A stretch of DNA of 30,533 nucleotides, taken from a virus. Position numbers and translations under genes: made by a program. This document shows positions 2,805-19,234 of this stretch, piece by piece. A model generated the notes under the pieces. The model was not told where the DNA came from and did not search any database. It was given only the letters and a program-made list of their open reading frames with translations. Where the stretch lies: IMG/VR virus record IMGVR_UViG_3300028735_000129, positions 1-30,533 of that record, one strand, 5' to 3'. How positions within the stretch are numbered: position 1 is the stretch's first letter; every line of letters begins with the position of its first letter.

Positions 2805-4007
2805 TCAGCCCGTCATCAGCCGTAGCGCCATCTCGAGGGCATCGGGCCCGTCGTCGTGGTCACTCATCGGCCAGTCGCGCAGTTGTCTGTATAGTAGCCG
2901 ACCGCCCGGTGTATCCGCAATGCGCAGCTCACGTCGCACGATTGACGGGCCGAGCCGACGGATGCGTAGCTCCTTCGCGCCGTCCGCCTTGACGCCGTAG
3001 ATCGGCCACGGCACGCGGCGATTTCGCGTCAGCTCGCCGATCAGCACCTGCTGGAAGGCGACCGCCTCGATGCCGATCGCGTGCGGTTTCCAGCGGTCGG
3101 CCATGACCAGCGTATCGGCGATGATCGCATGCGGCGGGCGGCGTGCGAGGTCGGCCTCAGCCCAGAGTAGACCATCGCACCAGCCCAGCGCGACGATCGC
3201 CGAGTAGTCGCCACTGTCAGGCTTCGCCCCGAGCGACGGATCGACCGCGATGACACGGCGGGTCATGCGCTCGAGCGGTAGCGATGATGCTGGTACCAGT
3301 ATCCAGTCGCCCCATAGATCCGCTGGCCATTCGACGCCTTCGGGATCGCACCATTCGGCCTCAAGTTCCTGCCGTGCCCAGACACCGACCAAATCCGCGT
3401 AGAGTTGCCCCCGCACCGTAGCCGACAACAGCGGATTATCGCTTGTGGCGGCGCGAATGACTTGGGCGCCCGTCGCCTGTGGCCCGAACATCCGGTAGGT
3501 CCAGTGGCCTGTACCTTTGGGCGTGGTGGTCACGGCTAGCCAGGGTGATGCGCCTAGTCGCAGTGTCGGGAGTAGCACTTGCAGCGCGTCCTCGTCGATC
3601 TGGGCGGCCTCGTCGAGCCAGACGCCGTGCAGGTTGAGACCGCGCAATCGGTCGGGTCGGTCAGCGGAGCGGAAGCGGATTTCGGATCGACCGGGAATCG
3701 TCATGAGCATTTTGCCGGGTGACTCGACGACATCCAGCCGCATGAGTTGCGCTACAGATCGGACGGCTGGCCAGTCGATATCCTCGAGCATGGTATAGGT
3801 TGGGGCGACGACAGCGTACTGGCCCGGATCGCGGGCGGCGCAGAGCAGCAATCGATACGCGCCCGCCCAAGTCTTGCCCGCGCCACGGCCGGCGATCAGT
3901 GCGACGCGTCGCGCGTCACTCAGTGCGTACATCTGCTGATGCGCCAGGAGCGGGATTTCGATCCGGTGTGTCTGTTGTTGCCGTCGTGGTAATGACACGG
4001 TGGACAT
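2805..4007 (-). CDS. terL: Terminase large subunit
   Basis: The 400-residue protein has the two-domain layout of phage packaging motors. The ATPase domain has Walker A GRGAGKT (residues 40-46) and Walker B LHGVWLDEAAQ (126-136), followed by the coupling motif TTTPKG (160-165). The RNase H-like nuclease domain has AVDPSLGAKPDSGDYSAIV (254-272, Asp255), the IGIEAVAFQQ strand (311-320, Glu314) and the C-terminal DHDDGPDALEMAL (383-395). All the acidic residues needed for metal binding appear present. It overlaps the small terminase gene by 92 bases. It would cut concatemeric DNA and pump it into the prohead. It is a little shorter than many large terminases but seems complete. Confidence 0.94.
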   Translation of the reverse strand: MSTVSLPRRQQQTHRIEIPLLAHQQMYALSDARRVALIAGRGAGKTWAGAYRLLLCAARDPGQYAVVAPTYTMLEDIDWPAVRSVAQLMRLDVVESPGKMLMTIPGRSEIRFRSADRPDRLRGLNLHGVWLDEAAQIDEDALQVLLPTLRLGASPWLAVTTTPKGTGHWTYRMFGPQATGAQVIRAATSDNPLLSATVRGQLYADLVGVWARQELEAEWCDPEGVEWPADLWGDWILVPASSLPLERMTRRVIAVDPSLGAKPDSGDYSAIVALGWCDGLLWAEADLARRPPHAIIADTLVMADRWKPHAIGIEAVAFQQVLIGELTRNRRVPWPIYGVKADGAKELRIRRLGPSIVRRELRIADTPGGRLLYRQLRDWPMSDHDDGPDALEMALRLMTG

Positions 4008-4302
4008 ACTCGATTACGGCTCCACTCTGGCCAGTGGGCAGCGGTACGTCGCGCTGACCGAGGTACTGCTTACCCAAAAAGATCGCCATAGTGGGGGACT
4101 TTTCGGCCAAGGTCCATTGGATTTTATGCAGCCGGCCTCGCATTTGAGCGCGGCCTGCCTCCAGATCGTCTGCACACCGTCGCTCCAGTGTGCGACGACT
4201 AATCCGCACAGTGATCGCGATATCCTCATGCGACAAGCCAAGGCTGGCGAGATGTCGCACAATCCGGCGAGTCTCATCAGTGATCGATGCGCGCGGTCGC
4301 AT
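3916..4302 (-). CDS. Terminase small subunit (probable)
   Basis: This 128-residue protein precedes terL and overlaps it. Residues 8-47 form a helix-turn-helix-like segment (RRIVRHLASLGLSHEDIAIT then RISRRTLERR), and SPTMAIFLGKQYLGQRD (69-85) is a signature I associate with small terminases of this type. It would recognise the packaging site and recruit the large subunit. The gene follows an 80-base gap (4303-4382) after the ABC/GNAT gene. That gap holds a TTGGCCAA palindrome (within 4340-4350) and AT-rich stretches but no confident host promoter. It is a reasonable place for a late promoter read by the phage sigma factor. The start has no obvious Shine-Dalgarno site. Confidence 0.8.
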   Translation of the reverse strand: MRPRASITDETRRIVRHLASLGLSHEDIAITVRISRRTLERRCADDLEAGRAQMRGRLHKIQWTLAEKSPTMAIFLGKQYLGQRDVPLPTGQSGAVIEYVHRVITTTATTDTPDRNPAPGASADVRTE

Positions 4303-4382: not shown

Positions 4383-5483
4383 TCAAGCGCAGTACTCATA
4401 TGTTGCGACAGCTCGACCGATAGAAGAGGAGCTGTTTAAACTCTTAATACTGTGCGGTTTCCCCGTTTTGCTAACACTCACCAGTCGCCATGAGGATGAC
4501 TTCTGGCAATGATTTAATATAGACGGGTGGCTTGCCGTAATATGCATAACGCTATTAGATCTTTTGTGATACATCTCCGCGATACAATCCATGACTCTTG
4601 AGCCGATACCGATGCCTTGATAATCCGGCAGCGTCACAATTCGACTGATCCGGTAGATTCTGCGATTTTCTGTTTGAAGCGAGCGTTTCTTAGAGCCGTA
4701 GCAATAGAGCACTGCTACAAAGCATACTGGCTGTTCACCCCAGAGGGCAACATAACATGATGCCCCCGACGATAACTTGTTGGTCAAATAATGATGCGAG
4801 CTAAACATTCTCCAGAGATGTTGTTTTGCACGGTGGATTTCCAATGTGATTGAGGGTCGCTGAAGACACCCTCGGGTGAATTCACGCGTTGCCATGTCCA
4901 GCACCCAATCTGGTTCCAACCATTCGAGGATGTCGTAGTGGCAAGTGACGGCTACAAATTTTCGCTGAATGCGCCCACTTCGAATTGATTTAGCGACCGC
5001 AGCCGACCCGATTTTGGCGACTGTGCGGTCAACAACGCTCGTAAACTCGTCAAACACAACAACGGGTTTAGTTGTGTCGGCGAGGGCATAGGCGAGGTCG
5101 CAGCGGAACTGTTCACCATTGCTCAGAACGGAATAAGGCTTCACCCAACTTGGTGGGGAGCTGAGCCCAACCGCCGTTAATATGCTTGTGATGTCTTTGA
5201 TGGATAGATCGCTTGGGAAATGATCAATGAGAGCACGATCGGTTGGCCAGGGCGGGTTGTGGGTGTATTCGTCTGGCCACAAATGGCGGGCCACTGTTGT
5301 TTTCCCGCTGCCGGATGGCCCGACAATCACACCAATCTTCCAGTCAAAACTGGTGAGGTCGGGGATCTTCAACTCCCAGTTTTGTGTGAGGCGTTGGGCG
5401 AGAGGAACGTCAAACATCCCCGCGATCTGGGCAACGCGAAAGGAATCGTATAGTGGGCAACTCTTGGTGATCTTAACTTGCAT
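4383..5483 (-). CDS. Soluble ABC-type ATPase fused to a GNAT acetyltransferase domain
   Basis: The first 210 residues of this 366-residue protein are an ABC ATPase: Walker A GPSGSGKT (55-62), ABC signature VLSNGEQFRCDLAYAL (119-134), Walker B VVVFDEF (141-147) with the catalytic Glu, and a switch His (182) in VTCHYD. There are no membrane segments, so it is not a transporter by itself. The C-terminal part is a GNAT acyltransferase: RISRIVTLPDYQGIGIGSRV (278-297) holds the Q-G-x-G-x-G acyl-CoA loop, and the domain ends in ATYEYC. Base composition is unlike the neighbours: 4501-4560 counts 38% GC, while 3601-3660 in terL counts 72%, which suggests recent acquisition. It follows a ParB-like gene by 7 bases. 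A GNAT fold is also used by the Mu DNA-modifying protein Mom, so DNA-base modification is one possibility; another is protein acetylation. Confidence 0.8.
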   Translation of the reverse strand: MQVKITKSCPLYDSFRVAQIAGMFDVPLAQRLTQNWELKIPDLTSFDWKIGVIVGPSGSGKTTVARHLWPDEYTHNPPWPTDRALIDHFPSDLSIKDITSILTAVGLSSPPSWVKPYSVLSNGEQFRCDLAYALADTTKPVVVFDEFTSVVDRTVAKIGSAAVAKSIRSGRIQRKFVAVTCHYDILEWLEPDWVLDMATREFTRGCLQRPSITLEIHRAKQHLWRMFSSHHYLTNKLSSGASCYVALWGEQPVCFVAVLYCYGSKKRSLQTENRRIYRISRIVTLPDYQGIGIGSRVMDCIAEMYHKRSNSVMHITASHPSILNHCQKSSSWRLVSVSKTGKPHSIKSLNSSSSIGRAVATYEYCA

Positions 5484-5490
5484 GCGAATC

Positions 5491-6033
5491 TCACAAAATT
5501 AAGGTACGACAACGATATCCTTCGGCGGTTAGTCTCTCGTATAGTTTTCGCTGGTCACTTTCGTCGGCACACTCGATAATGACTTGCCAGAGGGATTGAA
5601 GCCCGCGGTTCGTTTGTTCGGCGGCAGTCTCTTCTTTATCTTTCTCGAGCAACAATTCCAACATGTCGCTATTGAAACCAAGCAACTGAAGGTCAAAGTC
5701 TTCCTCTTTGAGCGTTGCAAGTTCGACCGATAACAGATCGTAGTCCCAGGTCGCCAGCGACGCAGTTTGGTTGTCGGCGATTCGATACGCCTTGATCTGC
5801 TCCGGTGTCAGATCTTTGACGACATGGACCGGCACTTTCTCCAGACCGAGTTTCAGCGCGGCCTTGTAGCGTGTGTGCCCGACGATGATAACACCATCAC
5901 CATCGACGACGATCGGCTGGCGGAACCCGAACTCGCGGATCGAGGCTGCCACCGCGTCTACGGTGCTATCGTTCTGGCGCGGGTTATTGGGGTAGGGCTT
6001 GATTTCGGACAGTTTGCGCAGCTCGATCTTCAC
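5491..6033 (-). CDS. ParB/Srx-like domain protein
   Basis: The product has IELRKLSEIKPYPNNPRQND, then SIREFGFRQPIVV, the hallmark GHTRYKAALKLG and ADNQTASLATWD, which together define the ParB-type N-terminal domain (about 110 residues). No ParA lies nearby, so plasmid-style partition is unlikely. In phages such domains often sit beside DNA-modifying or packaging genes. I choose the GTG at 6033: it has AGGAG eight bases upstream and a GTGA overlap with the zinc-finger stop. The frame extends to a GTG at 6081 but that start lacks a site. The product is 180 residues with an unassigned C-terminal tail. It is followed by the ABC/GNAT gene, so the two are probably co-translated and may act together. 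Confidence 0.82.
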   Translation of the reverse strand: MKIELRKLSEIKPYPNNPRQNDSTVDAVAASIREFGFRQPIVVDGDGVIIVGHTRYKAALKLGLEKVPVHVVKDLTPEQIKAYRIADNQTASLATWDYDLLSVELATLKEEDFDLQLLGFNSDMLELLLEKDKEETAAEQTNRGLQSLWQVIIECADESDQRKLYERLTAEGYRCRTLIL

Positions 6034-6254
6034 GCTTGGTTCTCCTGGTCCTCCATGTGGCGTATTGCGTTTTCCTGCCACGGGTTCGGGTCGCTGTAAC
6101 CGACTGGCCGGTGTCGCTCACGGCGACAACTTTCGCCGAGTAACATCCGTCGCTTGCGGTCGCAGCCGGGGCAGAGTTGCCCCTGGCTAAAACAACGACA
6201 ATTACACCATGGGCATGGTAGCGGTGCTGTATCAGTGCGTTTTTTTTTTCTCAT
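6030..6254 (-). CDS. Small zinc-finger protein
   Basis: This 74-residue basic protein has a compact cysteine cluster, CPWCNCRCFSQGQLCPGC (residues 14-31), with two CxxC pairs suited to binding zinc, then a run of basic residues. It is the first gene after the extended -10 promoter at 6277-6285 and overlaps the ParB-like gene by four bases. Ten consecutive A residues (complement of 6240-6249) encode Lys3-Lys5 right after the start. The nearest relative in concept is Mu Com, a small zinc-finger protein that activates translation of the DNA-modification gene mom; this is an analogy from arrangement, not sequence identity. It may equally be a simple DNA- or RNA-binding protein. Confidence 0.7.
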   Translation of the reverse strand: MRKKKRTDTAPLPCPWCNCRCFSQGQLCPGCDRKRRMLLGESCRRERHRPVGYSDPNPWQENAIRHMEDQENQA

Positions 6255-6334: not shown

Positions 6335-6901
6335 CTAGTCCAGATACTGGGCCAGGCTGGGGGCGAACCGCCTGACGCGAGCAATGGCAGTGGTCAGTAC
6401 GCAGTGGACGTTAGCCCGGCTGCAGCCACGCCGGGCAGCGATATCGGGCAAAGTCATCCCGTTCAGGTATCGCATGCGGAGCACCTCGAGTTGCTTGGTG
6501 GTCAGTATGCGGGCGAGAATGCCCCAGATATCTGCTGCATCATTGCTAGTCAGTTGCTCTACACGAGAGTGGCATTCATCAGATCCAGCATCCAGATCGA
6601 CGACGCTTGGCCCACCGCGACCGTACAGGTTCGGTGGCACATGCACGCCGCGTCTTCGTTGGTAGTGCTTCCAGCGGCGTGCGTAGTGATGGGCCAGACG
6701 GTAGGCATATGTACCGAACTGGACGCCACGGGTGGGATCATACCGCCGGGCGGCCCGCACGAACTGCAGACGCACCTCCGCGGCACAATCTTCGAGATCA
6801 TCGGGGCTAGCATCGGCCCCCATCACCCGCCTGGCAATCCACCAGGTCATCGGCTCGTATTGGGTGAGCAACTCGTTCACCTGTTGGCTGGTGAGGGTCA
6901 T
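6335..6901 (-). CDS. Sigma-70 family RNA polymerase sigma factor
   Basis: The 188-residue protein has the two domains of a short sigma factor. Residues 13-85 form region 2, with LEDCAAEVRLQFVRAARRYD followed by GVQFGTYAYRLAHHYARR, the core-binding and -10 melting helices. Residues 133-177 form region 4, with TTKQLEVLRMRYLNGMTLPD then IAARRGCSRANVHCVLTTAI, the HTH that reads the -35 element. There is no region 1 or 3, as in ECF-like factors. It overlaps the upstream regulator gene by four bases (ATGA), so the two are translated together. It most likely redirects host RNA polymerase to late promoters; the target sequence is unknown. Confidence 0.87.
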   Translation of the reverse strand: MTLTSQQVNELLTQYEPMTWWIARRVMGADASPDDLEDCAAEVRLQFVRAARRYDPTRGVQFGTYAYRLAHHYARRWKHYQRRRGVHVPPNLYGRGGPSVVDLDAGSDECHSRVEQLTSNDAADIWGILARILTTKQLEVLRMRYLNGMTLPDIAARRGCSRANVHCVLTTAIARVRRFAPSLAQYLD

Positions 6902-7452
6902 TTCGGCTCCTCCGTCATGCCGCCTAAACGGACGACCCGGGTCAGCGCGTCAGAAGCCACTGGGTACTGCATACGGATGAGGGTAGGATCGTCTGCCCAG
7001 TTCGATCCGTCGTCGTCTTCGGTGCAGAGGATGACTCGTAGTCGGACCTGCCCCGCCAAGGCCCGGGCGATGGCCCTCGCCTCGAACCGGCCCATCTGAT
7101 CGCTCACGACAGCCCCACGGAGCCGCCCGCTCGCCTTGGTCGCGATCGTTGCGGCTGCCCAGACAGTCTCGGCCGTCTCAATCTCCCAGCCAGGGAGTCG
7201 CGATCGGAGTTGCTCGGCCATAGCAGAGTCACCAGCCACCAGGAGCAGCGGCAGCCCTAACTCCTGTGGTATTGGGATGTTGTGCCGCCGCAGGAATTCC
7301 AGCAACGCTTCCCGAGTCACGCGACGATCTGTCGAATGTGGCAGCCGATAGCCGGGCAGGTAGCCCGAGTCAACCCACTTGGAGACTGTGCGTGGGCAAC
7401 TGTTCAGTAGTTTGGCGATTTGCCCGGTTGACAGTACGTTCCAGCTTTTCAT
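6898..7452 (-). CDS. HTH DNA-binding protein with receiver-like C-terminal domain
   Basis: I place the start at 7452 because GGAGG lies six bases upstream; the frame extends to 7515 but only through the GT/AC repeat. Of 184 residues, 5-60 form an excisionase/MerR-type winged HTH (VLSTGQIAKLLNSCPRTVSK, then WVDSGYLPGYRLPHSTDRR). Residues 67-175 resemble a CheY-type receiver: LLLVAGDS (acidic Asp75), GAVVSDQM (candidate phosphoacceptor Asp118), ILCT (Thr144). The conserved Lys is replaced (MQYPV, 161-165), so it may be a pseudo-receiver. The gene follows a 339-bp palindromic non-coding region, its likely binding target, and overlaps the sigma gene, which suggests a regulator that gates sigma expression. 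Confidence 0.75.
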   Translation of the reverse strand: MKSWNVLSTGQIAKLLNSCPRTVSKWVDSGYLPGYRLPHSTDRRVTREALLEFLRRHNIPIPQELGLPLLLVAGDSAMAEQLRSRLPGWEIETAETVWAAATIATKASGRLRGAVVSDQMGRFEARAIARALAGQVRLRVILCTEDDDGSNWADDPTLIRMQYPVASDALTRVVRLGGMTEEPK

Positions 7453-7466
7453 GATCCCTCCAGAAC

Positions 7467-7519
7467 TCTGTGTGTGGTGTAGTGTATGTGTGTATACACA
7501 CACCACACACAACACAACC
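7467..7519. repeat. GT/AC inverted repeat 1 centred on GTATAC
   Basis: The core TGTGTGTATACACACA (7487-7502) is a perfect 16-base palindrome. Beyond it the GT-rich left arm and AC-rich right arm continue with mismatches. It shares its left boundary sequence TCTGTGTGTGGTGT with repeat 2 at 7724-7737, so the two are also imperfect direct repeats. It lies just upstream of the ribosome site of the HTH/receiver gene and would be in its mRNA leader. Confidence 0.75.
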
Positions 7520-7724
7520 AGTCACCCGATGGGTGACCCAACCTACCACACCAGGCACCGCGCCAAGGTGGTATATGGCCTCCATTTTGCATTAATTGCG
7601 TTATAGGGCACTTTCTCAGGCTAACCTGAGTCATAACACGTTTTGGGAAAGATCGGCCCGTATACGCGATTTAATGCAAAATCGGGTATACTCTAATATT
7701 CTTACTATCATTTCTCTCTCATTT

Positions 7725-7787
7725 CTGTGTGTGGTGTGTGGTGTGTGTGTGTGTATACACACACACCACACACCACACACCACACAG
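7725..7787. repeat. GT/AC inverted repeat 2 centred on GTATAC
   Basis: The centre lies between 7755 and 7756. The inner arms pair from 7745 to 7766. Allowing a four-base bulge on the left, a further 15 bp pair perfectly (7727-7741 with 7666+100, that is 7766-7780). The arms are nearly pure GT and AC, so the element could extrude a cruciform, form a long RNA hairpin or adopt Z-DNA. It follows the primase-helicase stop codon (7792) almost at once. Confidence 0.75.
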
Positions 7788-7791
7788 AGAA

Positions 7792-9666
7792 TCATTCGTC
7801 GTTATCATCTACTTTTGATTGTTTGAAGTTCGCATAGGTGGACGGGCGGTTGCGCCCACTTGTCCAGCGATGGATCAGGCCCAGGCCTTCCGCCCGGCGC
7901 AGTAGTTGTCCGGCTTTCCAGTCGGAGAGCCCGGCCGTGTTCGCCTCAGCCAGGATCGCGTCACGTGTCTTGGGCGTGTCCGACACGAACGCCGCCGCGA
8001 ACTGCTCCGCGTCCCAAGTCGGTTCACTTGCTTTGGTTTCGTCCGTTTCCGGCTTCGGTTTGCGCCTTGACCGTTCGAGTCGCAGATCGGCCGGGTCAAT
8101 GTCGTCAGCCGGCGACCACACCGGGAAGGACCAGCGCAGGCACCTTGGCAACACCGGCGGCCAGGAGCGCACGGCCGCCTCCAACACCGCCACGCCATCT
8201 TCTTTGTGTGGGCGAAGAATCAGGTGCGTGTCGGTCGCTCGGCTTTGACTGCCGGCGCCTGCCCCTACGTCGGTGACCGACTTGCCAGCCTGACTCCCTT
8301 TCGTGGTGTGGTGGATCAACACGAAGCAGCAGCCCAAGAGGTCGGCGTAGCGGTCGATGGCGTTGTAAACGTTCGCCATCGTGCCGTTGTCGTTCTCGTC
8401 CATCTCCTTGGGCATGAAACGATACATGGCATCGAGGATGATCACCCGGAATCGCCCCGGCTCCAGTGAGCGAAAATATGCCCCCAGCGAGAAGATGTCC
8501 TGCCAGTGCCCGCGCAGGTTCTGCACGAAGACGCGCTGGCCAACCTCGTCGAGCCCGATCTGCCGCGCCGCCGCGACCTTGGGAATGCGGTTCGCCGAAG
8601 TCTCACCATGCAACTCGTTGTCGATGATGAGCACATTCCCCGGATCGGTCTCGAAGGTGTCAAGCCAGGGGCGACCGGTAGCAATGGATAGCGCTAAGTC
8701 GATGACCAGCCAGGACTTACCGATCTTGGGGGCAGATATGACGTTCATCGTCTCGCCTTGGCGCAGCAAGCCGTGGATCACCGGCCGGCGCAGGTCAGGA
8801 TAGCGCGCCACCAGGTCGGCTAAACTGACCGGGGCCAACTGCTGCGGCGCCTGCCCCCGCATCAATTGGTCCCAGTGCCCCTCGACAAGGGCCACCGACA
8901 CTTCGTCCGGTGCGTACCTAGCAACGCTTGTGGCAACCCCTTCAACTTCTCGCTCGTCGAGCGGTGGTCGGCACCGGTCCTTGTTAACCTGATGCAGGGC
9001 GGCCGCAATCTCTCTCTGTGTCATCCCGCGGCGGCGCATAGCTCCCGCCAGTCGGGTCAGGGTTTTATTTCGTCGGCCTTGCGGGATTATGTTTGGTTCG
9101 TCGGGAGCGGTGGCGGGACACGTCGGGGCCGGCGTACTAGTCAAGGCATCGAGTTCCTGAACCAACCAGGATGGCGGCTCGGGCAATCGTTCCAGCGGAT
9201 CGTCGAGTCCCAGTTCCGGCGCCCAGCGATACGAACCGTCTTCGGTCACCGACGGTGCGACTACGAAGTAGCCACCATCAGCGCGAATATCAACCTTCGG
9301 GGCAAGCTGACTCTCGGAGCAACGCCAGTTCTTGCCCGTCGGTTGTCGGAACAGGTAGTGCCGGCCGCCGCGCGGCGTCATGGCAACAGCACCGGCCCCG
9401 GCCAGGTCGGCGGCTCGCTCGGGGTCACCCGGCCAGGGGTTGTTCGCGCCGTCAATGTCAACGACTAGCAAGCCCTCGGTTGGGATGCCGATATTTGCTC
9501 GCGGATGCTGCGCCCACCAGCGCTCGATCTGCTCCTGATCCGTGGTCGCGTCCTTGAAGCCGTGATCGGTCAGCGGTGCTTTGCCGCCGGGCACGCACGG
9601 GAAGACGCGGTAGCCAAGCTCGGCGTAGTGAAGCGCGGCGGACAGCAGATCGTTTGATGTCACCAT
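7792..9666 (-). CDS. Prim-Pol domain / RepA-like helicase (primase-helicase)
   Basis: This 624-residue protein joins two replication activities. Residues 5-170 form a bifunctional primase-polymerase domain: catalytic DIDG (70-73), RGGRHYLF (99-106) and VDIRADGGYFVVAP (125-138). Residues 198-252 resemble a primase C-terminal helical module. Residues 296-520 form a RecA-fold ATPase of the RepA/AAA_25 type: Walker A SAPKIGKS (311-318), Walker B RVIILDAM (407-414) and sensor IHHTTKG (451-457). The C-terminus (from about 560) looks like a winged helix. It would prime and unwind DNA at the origin, with the host polymerase completing synthesis. It overlaps the SF2 helicase gene by 7 bases and is followed by the palindromic region. 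Confidence 0.9.
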   Translation of the reverse strand: MVTSNDLLSAALHYAELGYRVFPCVPGGKAPLTDHGFKDATTDQEQIERWWAQHPRANIGIPTEGLLVVDIDGANNPWPGDPERAADLAGAGAVAMTPRGGRHYLFRQPTGKNWRCSESQLAPKVDIRADGGYFVVAPSVTEDGSYRWAPELGLDDPLERLPEPPSWLVQELDALTSTPAPTCPATAPDEPNIIPQGRRNKTLTRLAGAMRRRGMTQREIAAALHQVNKDRCRPPLDEREVEGVATSVARYAPDEVSVALVEGHWDQLMRGQAPQQLAPVSLADLVARYPDLRRPVIHGLLRQGETMNVISAPKIGKSWLVIDLALSIATGRPWLDTFETDPGNVLIIDNELHGETSANRIPKVAAARQIGLDEVGQRVFVQNLRGHWQDIFSLGAYFRSLEPGRFRVIILDAMYRFMPKEMDENDNGTMANVYNAIDRYADLLGCCFVLIHHTTKGSQAGKSVTDVGAGAGSQSRATDTHLILRPHKEDGVAVLEAAVRSWPPVLPRCLRWSFPVWSPADDIDPADLRLERSRRKPKPETDETKASEPTWDAEQFAAAFVSDTPKTRDAILAEANTAGLSDWKAGQLLRRAEGLGLIHRWTSGRNRPSTYANFKQSKVDDNDE

Positions 9667-17276: not shown

Positions 17277-18752
17277 CTAACCTAACCGCTTAACGCATAT
17301 AGATTTGTGGAGATAGGGTACCGTGGCCACCCACGGCCCAAACTCGCTGAGCGGCGACCTGGTCGGGTCGAGGGCGCGGTAGCCGCCGAGGTGCGTATCG
17401 TGGTCGCGTTGGTGCCGGTCCTGTGTGACGACCAGCCAGCGCCAGCGGCCGGCTCGGGTCACATCCTCGAGCCACCGCCGCACCAGGTCCGCCGGCCAGT
17501 GGTGCAGCACGTCCTTGAGCATGAGCACATCGCCGGCGGGTAGCTCGGCTACTCTGGTGATGTCACCAGTACGATACTCGACCCGATCCGTACTCGGCGG
17601 CAGGACGCGACCCACACAATCGATGCCGATGACATGCATCCCCGAAGCCTCGGCGATCGCTCGGGTCACGCGGCCATCACCGCATCCAGCATCGACTGCC
17701 GTCTGCCATCCGCCGACCGCCGCCATCGCCGCAACGATCCGAATATACTCGGTAGCCTCACTGCCCCCGTCACCCCACAGCCCGCAGCGGTAGATGTGGT
17801 CGAATACTCGCGCGGGGTCGTCGTCGCGCCGCAGTACGTCCGCTAGCTCGTCCCATACCTCGGCCTCTCGGGGCAGGTGGTAGGCGGGGCCACTGTAGCC
17901 CTTGCGCCTGTCTGGGATGTCCTCGATGCGCCAGAGCTTGCCTTGGCACCGATGCACGATCAGATCCTCGCCCGACTGCCGACAGATAAACGCCGGGTGT
18001 CGCCAGTCGGCGCGGCCGATCTCGTGATACGGCCAGCCGCCGGCTGCGAGCGCGATCCGCCACTGGTCCTGGTCGCCGAACCCGTGCCGAAAATAGTAAT
18101 CGCTATGCTGACACAGCCAGTCGGTCGCCATGATAAGCGGCCAAGCGCGTTCTCGGTCGATCCATAGTTGCCCGCCTTGGATCGGCGGCACGCCAGCATC
18201 ACCGCTTGGCCAGACCATCGGCCACTTGACATGGCTAGCTGTGTTCGGCAAATCGCGCCAAAACACGAACGGGGCACGTTCGAGGATCGCAGCATGCTGC
18301 GCCGGGTTCGCTACGCAATAGGCGTCGGCGTCCAAATAGAGCACGCGGCGCAGGTCGCAGTGACGGATGGCGTGCAGCTTGGCCTCCCAGCCTCGTAGGA
18401 TGCGAGGCTTGGTGCGCTCGGCCCAGTCGAGCGCCGAGACGATGGTCACGTCGAGGCCGCGCACGTCGGCCGGCTCGATCGGCTCCGGGTCAGCTCGATG
18501 GCCATGCCAGACCTGAATCGGTCCCTCGTAGCCGAGCCGCCGCAGCATGCGACACCCGACCGCGATACCCGGCCAGTAGCGGCCGCCGCCCACGTAGAGC
18601 ACGCCGAAGTCGTGGACGTGGCCAGCGTACTCCTCATCCTCAGCCAGGTCGATGACGCGCTCAAGCGCCTCACGATGCGCACGCACGACCAGCGGGCAAG
18701 TATGCCAGTTGGACGCTCGGGGCTGTTCGGGTTCAGGTAGCGGGTCGGTCAT
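17277..18752 (-). CDS. Glycosyltransferase-methyltransferase fusion
   Basis: I choose the ATG at 18752, which overlaps the upstream stop as ATGA (491 residues); the frame extends to 18776. The N-terminal 320 residues resemble a GT-A glycosyltransferase: LRGWEAKLHAIRHCDLRRVL leading to YLDADAY (DxD metal-binding, about residues 140-143), and QGGQLWIDRE further on. The C-terminal 150 residues are a class I SAM-dependent methyltransferase: AVDAGCGDGRVTRAIAEA (motif I), VIGIDCVG, YRTGDITR and MLKDVLHHWPADLV. It could add and cap a sugar on a virion protein, host surface or DNA; the acceptor is unknown. It is the last gene of the late block. Confidence 0.78.
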   Translation of the reverse strand: MTDPLPEPEQPRASNWHTCPLVVRAHREALERVIDLAEDEEYAGHVHDFGVLYVGGGRYWPGIAVGCRMLRRLGYEGPIQVWHGHRADPEPIEPADVRGLDVTIVSALDWAERTKPRILRGWEAKLHAIRHCDLRRVLYLDADAYCVANPAQHAAILERAPFVFWRDLPNTASHVKWPMVWPSGDAGVPPIQGGQLWIDRERAWPLIMATDWLCQHSDYYFRHGFGDQDQWRIALAAGGWPYHEIGRADWRHPAFICRQSGEDLIVHRCQGKLWRIEDIPDRRKGYSGPAYHLPREAEVWDELADVLRRDDDPARVFDHIYRCGLWGDGGSEATEYIRIVAAMAAVGGWQTAVDAGCGDGRVTRAIAEASGMHVIGIDCVGRVLPPSTDRVEYRTGDITRVAELPAGDVLMLKDVLHHWPADLVRRWLEDVTRAGRWRWLVVTQDRHQRDHDTHLGGYRALDPTRSPLSEFGPWVATVPYLHKSICVKRLG

Positions 18753-19234
18753 GGCAGATATACCGCAAGCCCCCATCGAGGGTACACTACGCCCCGACGA
18801 GTCGTATCGGACCAGTGCTCGACATACTGAACGGTGGCTACCGACTGCCTCCCGTTAATTGGGCAGTGATAGTGGACTCGGCCACGAACGACCCCGGCTA
18901 CTATGACCCAATGACCAGCAACGCAGCAGATGACGGGCCGGCTACGTCTAGTCTGATAGCGCAGGTCGTCGCAATCCATTACACCCGCGATGACATGGAG
19001 CCCGAGCGACCAAAGCGCGGCCTCGAGAGTATCTGGGCTGGTGCCGTCGATCGGCGTAGACTGACGGCCACGAGGACGGATGCCGTAATACTCACAGACC
19101 GCGCGAACCACAGCGTCCCCGCAGTCATGATCGTCCTTTTGCCGGATGTCGGGGATCGGAAGAATCATAGTGGGTTCCCCGCATTCCTCCGCCGAACACA
19201 TGCTCAGATACCGATTGTAGCGCCAGCAATTCAT
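18749..19234 (-). CDS. C39-like cysteine peptidase
   Basis: The core reads LPIPDIRQKDDHDCGDAVVR, AVCEYYGI, with the oxyanion Gln32 and catalytic Cys38 of the C39/papain-like fold; the catalytic His is His108 in CCVAGHWVIVAGVV. The third catalytic residue, normally an Asp in a D-P motif, is replaced by HCPINGR (124-129), so the triad may be completed otherwise or activity may be altered. The start is uncertain: ATG 19234 overlaps the upstream stop (ATGA), while ATG 19168 (MILPIPDI) has GGGGA seven bases upstream. It could cleave a host-wall peptide or a phage protein late in infection. Confidence 0.7.
   Translation of the reverse strand: MNCWRYNRYLSMCSAEECGEPTMILPIPDIRQKDDHDCGDAVVRAVCEYYGIRPRGRQSTPIDGTSPDTLEAALWSLGLHVIAGVMDCDDLRYQTRRSRPVICCVAGHWVIVAGVVRGRVHYHCPINGRQSVATVQYVEHWSDTTRRGVVYPRWGLAVYLP

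Follow-up and report, generated by a model that had tools for sequence, protein, structure and literature searches.

The 30,533-base stretch analysed here (hereafter the window) is an IMG/VR virus contig of a tailed phage, and on its minus strand, at 6254–4383, lie the three overlapping or adjacent genes that a first-pass annotation had described as a cassette. A 74-residue, Cys-rich (zinc-finger-like) ORF (6030–6254, minus strand) comes first; it is followed by a ParB-type protein (5491–6033, minus strand), built from a ParB/Srx N-domain and a C-terminal tail of ~45 residues (WQVIIECADESDQRKLYERLTAEGYRCRTLIL; 5491–5616, minus strand), and, beginning 7 bases past the ParB gene, by an ABC ATPase (residues about 1–205) in one chain with a GNAT acyltransferase (about 206–366), referred to hereafter as ABC-GNAT (4383–5483, minus strand; PHROG 11143). 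Downstream of the cassette are a small HTH protein that precedes terL and is a probable terminase small subunit (3916–4302, minus strand; weak HTH_23 match), the terminase large subunit (2805–4007, minus strand; PF03237, 4.8e-14) and, further on, the portal.

The ParB start is most likely GTG 6033 and not 6081, a choice based on a GGAG-type ribosome site, on where homologues begin and on a GTGA in which the start overlaps the stop codon of the zinc-finger-like ORF, an overlap that couples the two genes translationally. A single promoter for all three genes is plausible; a −35/−10 scan of the cassette strand returned no sigma-70 site, and the extended −10-like motif ahead of the cassette (TGATATAAT, 6285–6277, minus strand) was noticed by eye only. 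A phage sigma factor (Sigma70 r2 and r4; 6335–6901, minus strand) lies directly upstream and may control the cassette. Elsewhere in the window, GT/AC-rich repeats (TATGTGTGTATACACACC-like; 7430–7570 and 7760–7810) surround the start of an HTH gene (6898–7515, minus strand) as possible operators, a 499-residue protein (17277–18776, minus strand) appears by eye to join a glycosyltransferase part to a methyltransferase-like part, and an Rfam search found no RNA family.

The Cys-rich ORF had been proposed as a counterpart of Com, the zinc-finger partner of Mu Mom. The ORF exists, but it is without a homologue (no Pfam, PHROG or NCBIfam match), unique to this contig and outside the conserved cassette; of 102 loci, only 4 have a Cys-rich ORF at the equivalent place, and the window is one of the four. 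We rejected the Com analogy on these grounds.

The unusually low GC content that had been pointed out is borne out by recounting: the ABC-GNAT gene stands at 50% (46% over the stretch that encodes GNAT, and down to 35% in its lowest 60-bp row), compared with 61% for the contig and 65% for terL. Among 160 relatives the difference between this gene and its flanks averages +0.006 and is nowhere as low as −0.12, so that the low GC is peculiar to this contig; it suggests that the phage acquired or replaced the gene recently, and it is uninformative about function. The nearest relatives of the cassette were found in Pirellulales and other planctomycete genomes, and the host is therefore probably a planctomycete.

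The ABC-GNAT protein and its family

Both halves of ABC-GNAT retain the motifs expected of them, as the first reading of the sequence had indicated: Walker A (GPSGSGKT, residues 55–62), signature (LSNGEQ, 120–125) and Walker B (VVVFDE, 141–146) in the ATPase, and an acyl-CoA loop (Q-G-I-G-I-G) in the GNAT part. The D-loop and the switch region (C181-H182-Y-D184) are likewise intact. Nearly all of these motifs fall at invariant or nearly invariant columns across 95–112 relatives, and the GNAT part adds a set of nearly invariant residues (W224, F227, H231, Y232, R281, P286, D287, Q289, G290, H319, P320, and W332). In Pfam one half is assigned to ABC and the other to GNAT, PHROG 11143 matches over the full length (E 3.6e-108), and an NCBIfam search gave nothing specific. 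AlphaFold2 returned a confident two-domain model of the full protein (mean pLDDT 93.4; 88.6 for the GNAT part alone). Annotation of such proteins as ABC transporters is rejected; there is no membrane domain, and transporter models match weakly, far below their cut-offs.

A Foldseek search of the GNAT part, a check proposed along with the original annotation, retrieved ordinary protein and small-molecule acetyltransferases, with RimI, Naa50/60 and similar protein acetyltransferases nearest and the tRNA cytidine acetyltransferase TmcA (2zpa) at rank 30. Relatives of this kind are what the original annotation had named as refuting its reading, but similarity of GNAT fold does not identify a substrate, and so the matches do not settle the question. 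The full chain matched general ABC ATPases of no informative subtype, with 2zpa again in the list.

The family has been recognized before. Iyer et al (2021; PMC7824862) report that they had recognized an ABC ATPase-coupled GNAT in 2013 (Iyer, Zhang, Burroughs, Aravind, NAR 41:7635), predicted to acylate a base in DNA in an uncharacterized way, and they name Tenacibaculum phage pT24 as a carrier. The pT24 protein is homologous to that of the window (35.5% identity, E 1e-45) and shares its predicted function, although the annotation of pT24 places ABC and GNAT in two ORFs and a search for the tail found none there. On the strength of the full-length PHROG match, the pT24 homology and the intact motifs, ABC-GNAT is a member of this predicted DNA-modification family and, since pT24 is the published example, our core reading is a rediscovery of the published prediction.

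The literature searched yielded neither a biochemical test nor any experimental follow-up of the family since 2013, nor a measurement of a modified base in any carrier phage, and the paper on the cultured carrier Leptospira phage LE4 holds no restriction or modification data. The family is nevertheless widespread: a tblastn search with ABC-GNAT matched 55 phage records, and relatives occur on viral and bacterial contigs that number in the hundreds. At least 292 unique loci were collected, and the cassette occurs in many unrelated phages.

ParB-type proteins and the C-terminal tail

The N-domain of the ParB-type protein is assigned with confidence (PF02195, 1.1e-9, 38.7 bits against a cut-off of 26.3; phrog_620, 4.8e-58), and no ParA turned up next to the cassette. 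The general company of this domain was surveyed in a control scan sampled without reference to ABC-GNAT, which gave 73 loci away from contig edges. In 40 of these the ParB N-domain is fused to a methyltransferase (called from ORF length and a DPPY-type motif), six ParBs sit beside Mom and six beside ABC-GNAT; Pfam and PHROG assignment of the next gene in the remaining loci added two methylases, four queuine-transglycosylases (DpdA-like) and two TET-associated glycosyltransferases. A DNA-modifying enzyme is thus fused or adjacent to the domain in at least 60 of 73 loci (54 of 67 excluding ABC-GNAT). The scan identifies this ParB family as a general neighbor of DNA-modifying enzymes, in keeping with the earlier proposal that ParB is the DNA-side partner. 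A 2025 study (PMC12783734) likewise reports that phage DNA-modifying enzymes have ParB domains in their vicinity or fused to them, and gives the function of these domains as unknown. In the DpdA-like cases (loci L384, L398, L413, and L369) ParB lies directly upstream, and some of these ParBs end in CPxCG.

In place of the canonical ParB dimer domain, the window's protein ends in the tail, whose consensus (..FQVxVECxxExxQxxLxERLxxEGxxCRxLxL) reads as strand–helix–strand by sequence pattern only. In Mu-like Porphyromonas and Pseudomonas phages, stand-alone ORFs of 42–49 residues upstream of ABC-GNAT correspond to this ParB C-terminus and match phrog_28816. One of them, XAW31881.1 of phage007a (L006:4876–5004), is carried in GenBank as an “acr candidate” (anti-CRISPR).

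The tail was found upstream of ABC-GNAT in 269 of the 283 collected loci with enough upstream sequence (none was detected in the other 14), in part without a ParB N-domain, a figure that is partly circular because sequences from among the first 160 loci served as seeds for the model of the tail. The ParB N-domain scan provides an independent control, in which all 6 ParBs beside ABC-GNAT carry the tail and none of the 67 others does (Fisher p 5.9e-9). Arthrobacter and Microbacterium ParBs paired with Mom bear a C-terminal CPxC motif in place of the tail. From this co-occurrence the tail would be an adaptor that docks ABC-GNAT. On this view the N-domain of ParB would supply the contact with DNA in common to many systems, and the C-terminus would be a plug that docks one particular enzyme. 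The survey suggests, more broadly, that one ParB-type scaffold may serve many phage DNA-modifying enzymes via exchangeable C-terminal ends.

Mom loci and downstream neighbors of ABC-GNAT

ABC-GNAT occupies the locus of Mom in two groups of phages, and a third case is weaker. In the Mu-like Porphyromonas phage015a the tail genes are followed by mom; at the same spot in phage007a, the tail genes are followed by the stand-alone adaptor tail, ABC-GNAT and a formyltransferase, the three nearest tail genes of the two phages being 98%, 94%, and 86% identical. Mu-like phages carry cargo of many kinds at their right ends, and this replacement could for that reason be coincidence. The Arthrobacter case, in which ParB is kept, is stronger: BarretLemon (hypothetical protein, ParB, hypothetical protein, Mom, DNA-binding-clamp in reverse orientation) and EastWest (hypothetical protein, ParB, ABC-GNAT, hypothetical protein, DNA-binding-clamp in reverse orientation) are syntenic around ParB, with flanks 46–78% identical. 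In Microbacterium Antuna, ParB overlaps Mom. The weaker case pairs Enterococcus Ef5.2, with Mom, and 9184, with ABC-GNAT, both next to a homologous DNA polymerase.

The ABC-GNAT pair of Enterococcus 9184 (L336:1869–5385) lies inside the DNA polymerase gene and cuts off its C-terminal 80 residues, which are joined to the end of GNAT; in the relative Ef5.2 an intact polymerase precedes Mom. Aeromonas phage AsFcp_1 (MN871440; 2074–2646 and 206457–207383) carries a Mom homologue and ABC-GNAT in one genome, a point against our reading.

Further evidence comes from genes downstream of ABC-GNAT in relatives. On at least seven distinct contigs, that of phage Jace included, an aspartate decarboxylase (PanD; PF02261, E 2e-33 in Jace) and a short CoA-transferase III (PF02515, E 2e-8) follow directly. 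The Gly-Ser at which PanD is processed is conserved, as is a GDT..GL motif of the CoA-transferase, and the simplest reading would be a route from aspartate through beta-alanine and beta-alanyl-CoA to GNAT. A contig with two tandem ABC-GNAT copies (IMGVR_UViG_3300002541_000124; L171:1472–4135) has PanD and CoA-transferase genes between them.

In one subclade, at least 56 loci have a Formyl_trans_N gene after ABC-GNAT. Its product keeps the His of the formyltransferase fold, but none of 60 copies has, two positions ahead of that His, the Asn that is catalytic in known members, which makes standard formyl transfer doubtful. Markers of Mu-likeness exceed their cut-offs in some records of this clade (PF02914 (MuA) in 3/25, PF09299 in 8/25), so that it is shown to be Mu-like only in part. 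Gene 3 of Gordonia AnClar (L005:2312–2962), annotated as a tRNA-methyltransferase, is in fact a formyltransferase-fold protein (PF00551).

Both kinds of neighbor suggest dedicated acyl donors, for example beta-alanyl-CoA, an argument that rests on relatives and not on this phage. The window's cassette has neither donor type (PanD/CoA-transferase or formyltransferase-fold), and acetyl-CoA or another host acyl-CoA is therefore its likely donor.

Proposed function and comparison with known systems

We consider it probable, with good though not complete confidence, that the cassette serves to modify the phage's DNA, by acylation of a nucleobase amine, and so fills the role of Mu Mom with components that are unrelated to it. 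DNA is the likely target of ABC-GNAT, a reading well supported by the replacement of Mom, the ParB neighbors, the linkage to the tail and the donor-type genes. In the mechanism we propose, the ParB N-domain and tail would bring ABC-GNAT to phage DNA, where ATP use by the ABC domain may open or move along the DNA, gate access or drive turnover; the GNAT domain would then move an acyl group from acyl-CoA to a nucleobase amine, both base and acyl group being putative, and the modified phage DNA would escape host restriction.

The best-placed alternative, which we nonetheless regard as unlikely, is that GNAT works as a protein acetyltransferase on a target of host or phage origin, for example RNA polymerase, a restriction enzyme or some other defense protein, in the service of host takeover or anti-defense, with ParB as a DNA tether. 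Protein acetyltransferases are indeed the nearest folds, and PMC7824862 describes acetylation of RNA polymerase by GNATs of phages; against this stand the overwhelming pairing of this ParB type with DNA-modifying enzymes, the exchange of places between ABC-GNAT and Mom, and the presence of PanD and CoA-transferase, which would be odd for plain protein acetylation.

Slightly less probable still is action on a free nucleotide (dNTP pool) or an already altered base, as opposed to a canonical base in polymeric DNA. The formyltransferase-fold gene of one subclade suggests a multi-step pathway, its universally missing Asn implying non-standard chemistry, but ParB and tail make sense for work on DNA, and most cassettes, that of the window included, are without a pre-modifying partner gene. 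A packaging or termination factor that marks or handles DNA for the neighboring terminase, as had first been suggested, is very improbable and was rejected as a general explanation, since the cassette is next to the terminase in this phage and in the majority of relatives from planctomycete phages, Streptococcus and Lactococcus but lies after tail genes in Mu-like phages, away from terminase in T4-like phages and by replication genes in others.

Returning to modification of phage DNA, a broader and distinctly more tentative version would have the ABC-GNATs transfer acyl or aminoacyl groups to DNA from donors that can be exchanged for one another, beta-alanyl-CoA from the phage's own PanD and compact CoA-transferase among them, with delivery to DNA by the ATP-driven ABC domain together with a ParB bearing an enzyme-specific plug. 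If this is true, the DNA of some phages contains beta-alanylated bases, which to our knowledge have not previously been described. The neighboring genes narrow the expectation of some acyl group on some base to a beta-alanyl group for Jace and an acetyl-type group for simple cassettes, and close relatives with either Mom or ABC-GNAT allow their DNA to be compared.

Among known systems, Mu Mom is like ABC-GNAT in belonging to the GNAT superfamily, in its genomic place in several phages and in its presumed acyl-type DNA modification; it is unlike it in having no ABC ATPase and no QxxGxG loop, and the window's cassette has no homologue of Com. An hhalign comparison with Mom as a single sequence gave a probability of 0.1% (E 0.57), and the Mom structure 8bv8, present in the PDB set, was not among the best 50 fold matches of the GNAT part. 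Of the Mom/Com-like route originally suggested, the Mom-like role is supported, with Mom replaced at the same locus, while the Com analogy falls and kinship with the Mom family is rejected on sequence. In the Dpd system, the chemistry is base exchange and not acylation, but a ParB-like ATPase, DpdB, helps to insert the modified base (PMC12839542); it gives a DNA-base-modifying enzyme a ParB-like partner, as is proposed for our cassette, and at four loci DpdA-like genes follow the same ParB type. TmcA/NAT10 differ in their helicase-type rather than ABC-type ATPase, in their RNA target and in having no close sequence relation to ABC-GNAT, yet they too combine an ATPase and a GNAT in one chain, and they act on a nucleobase amine.
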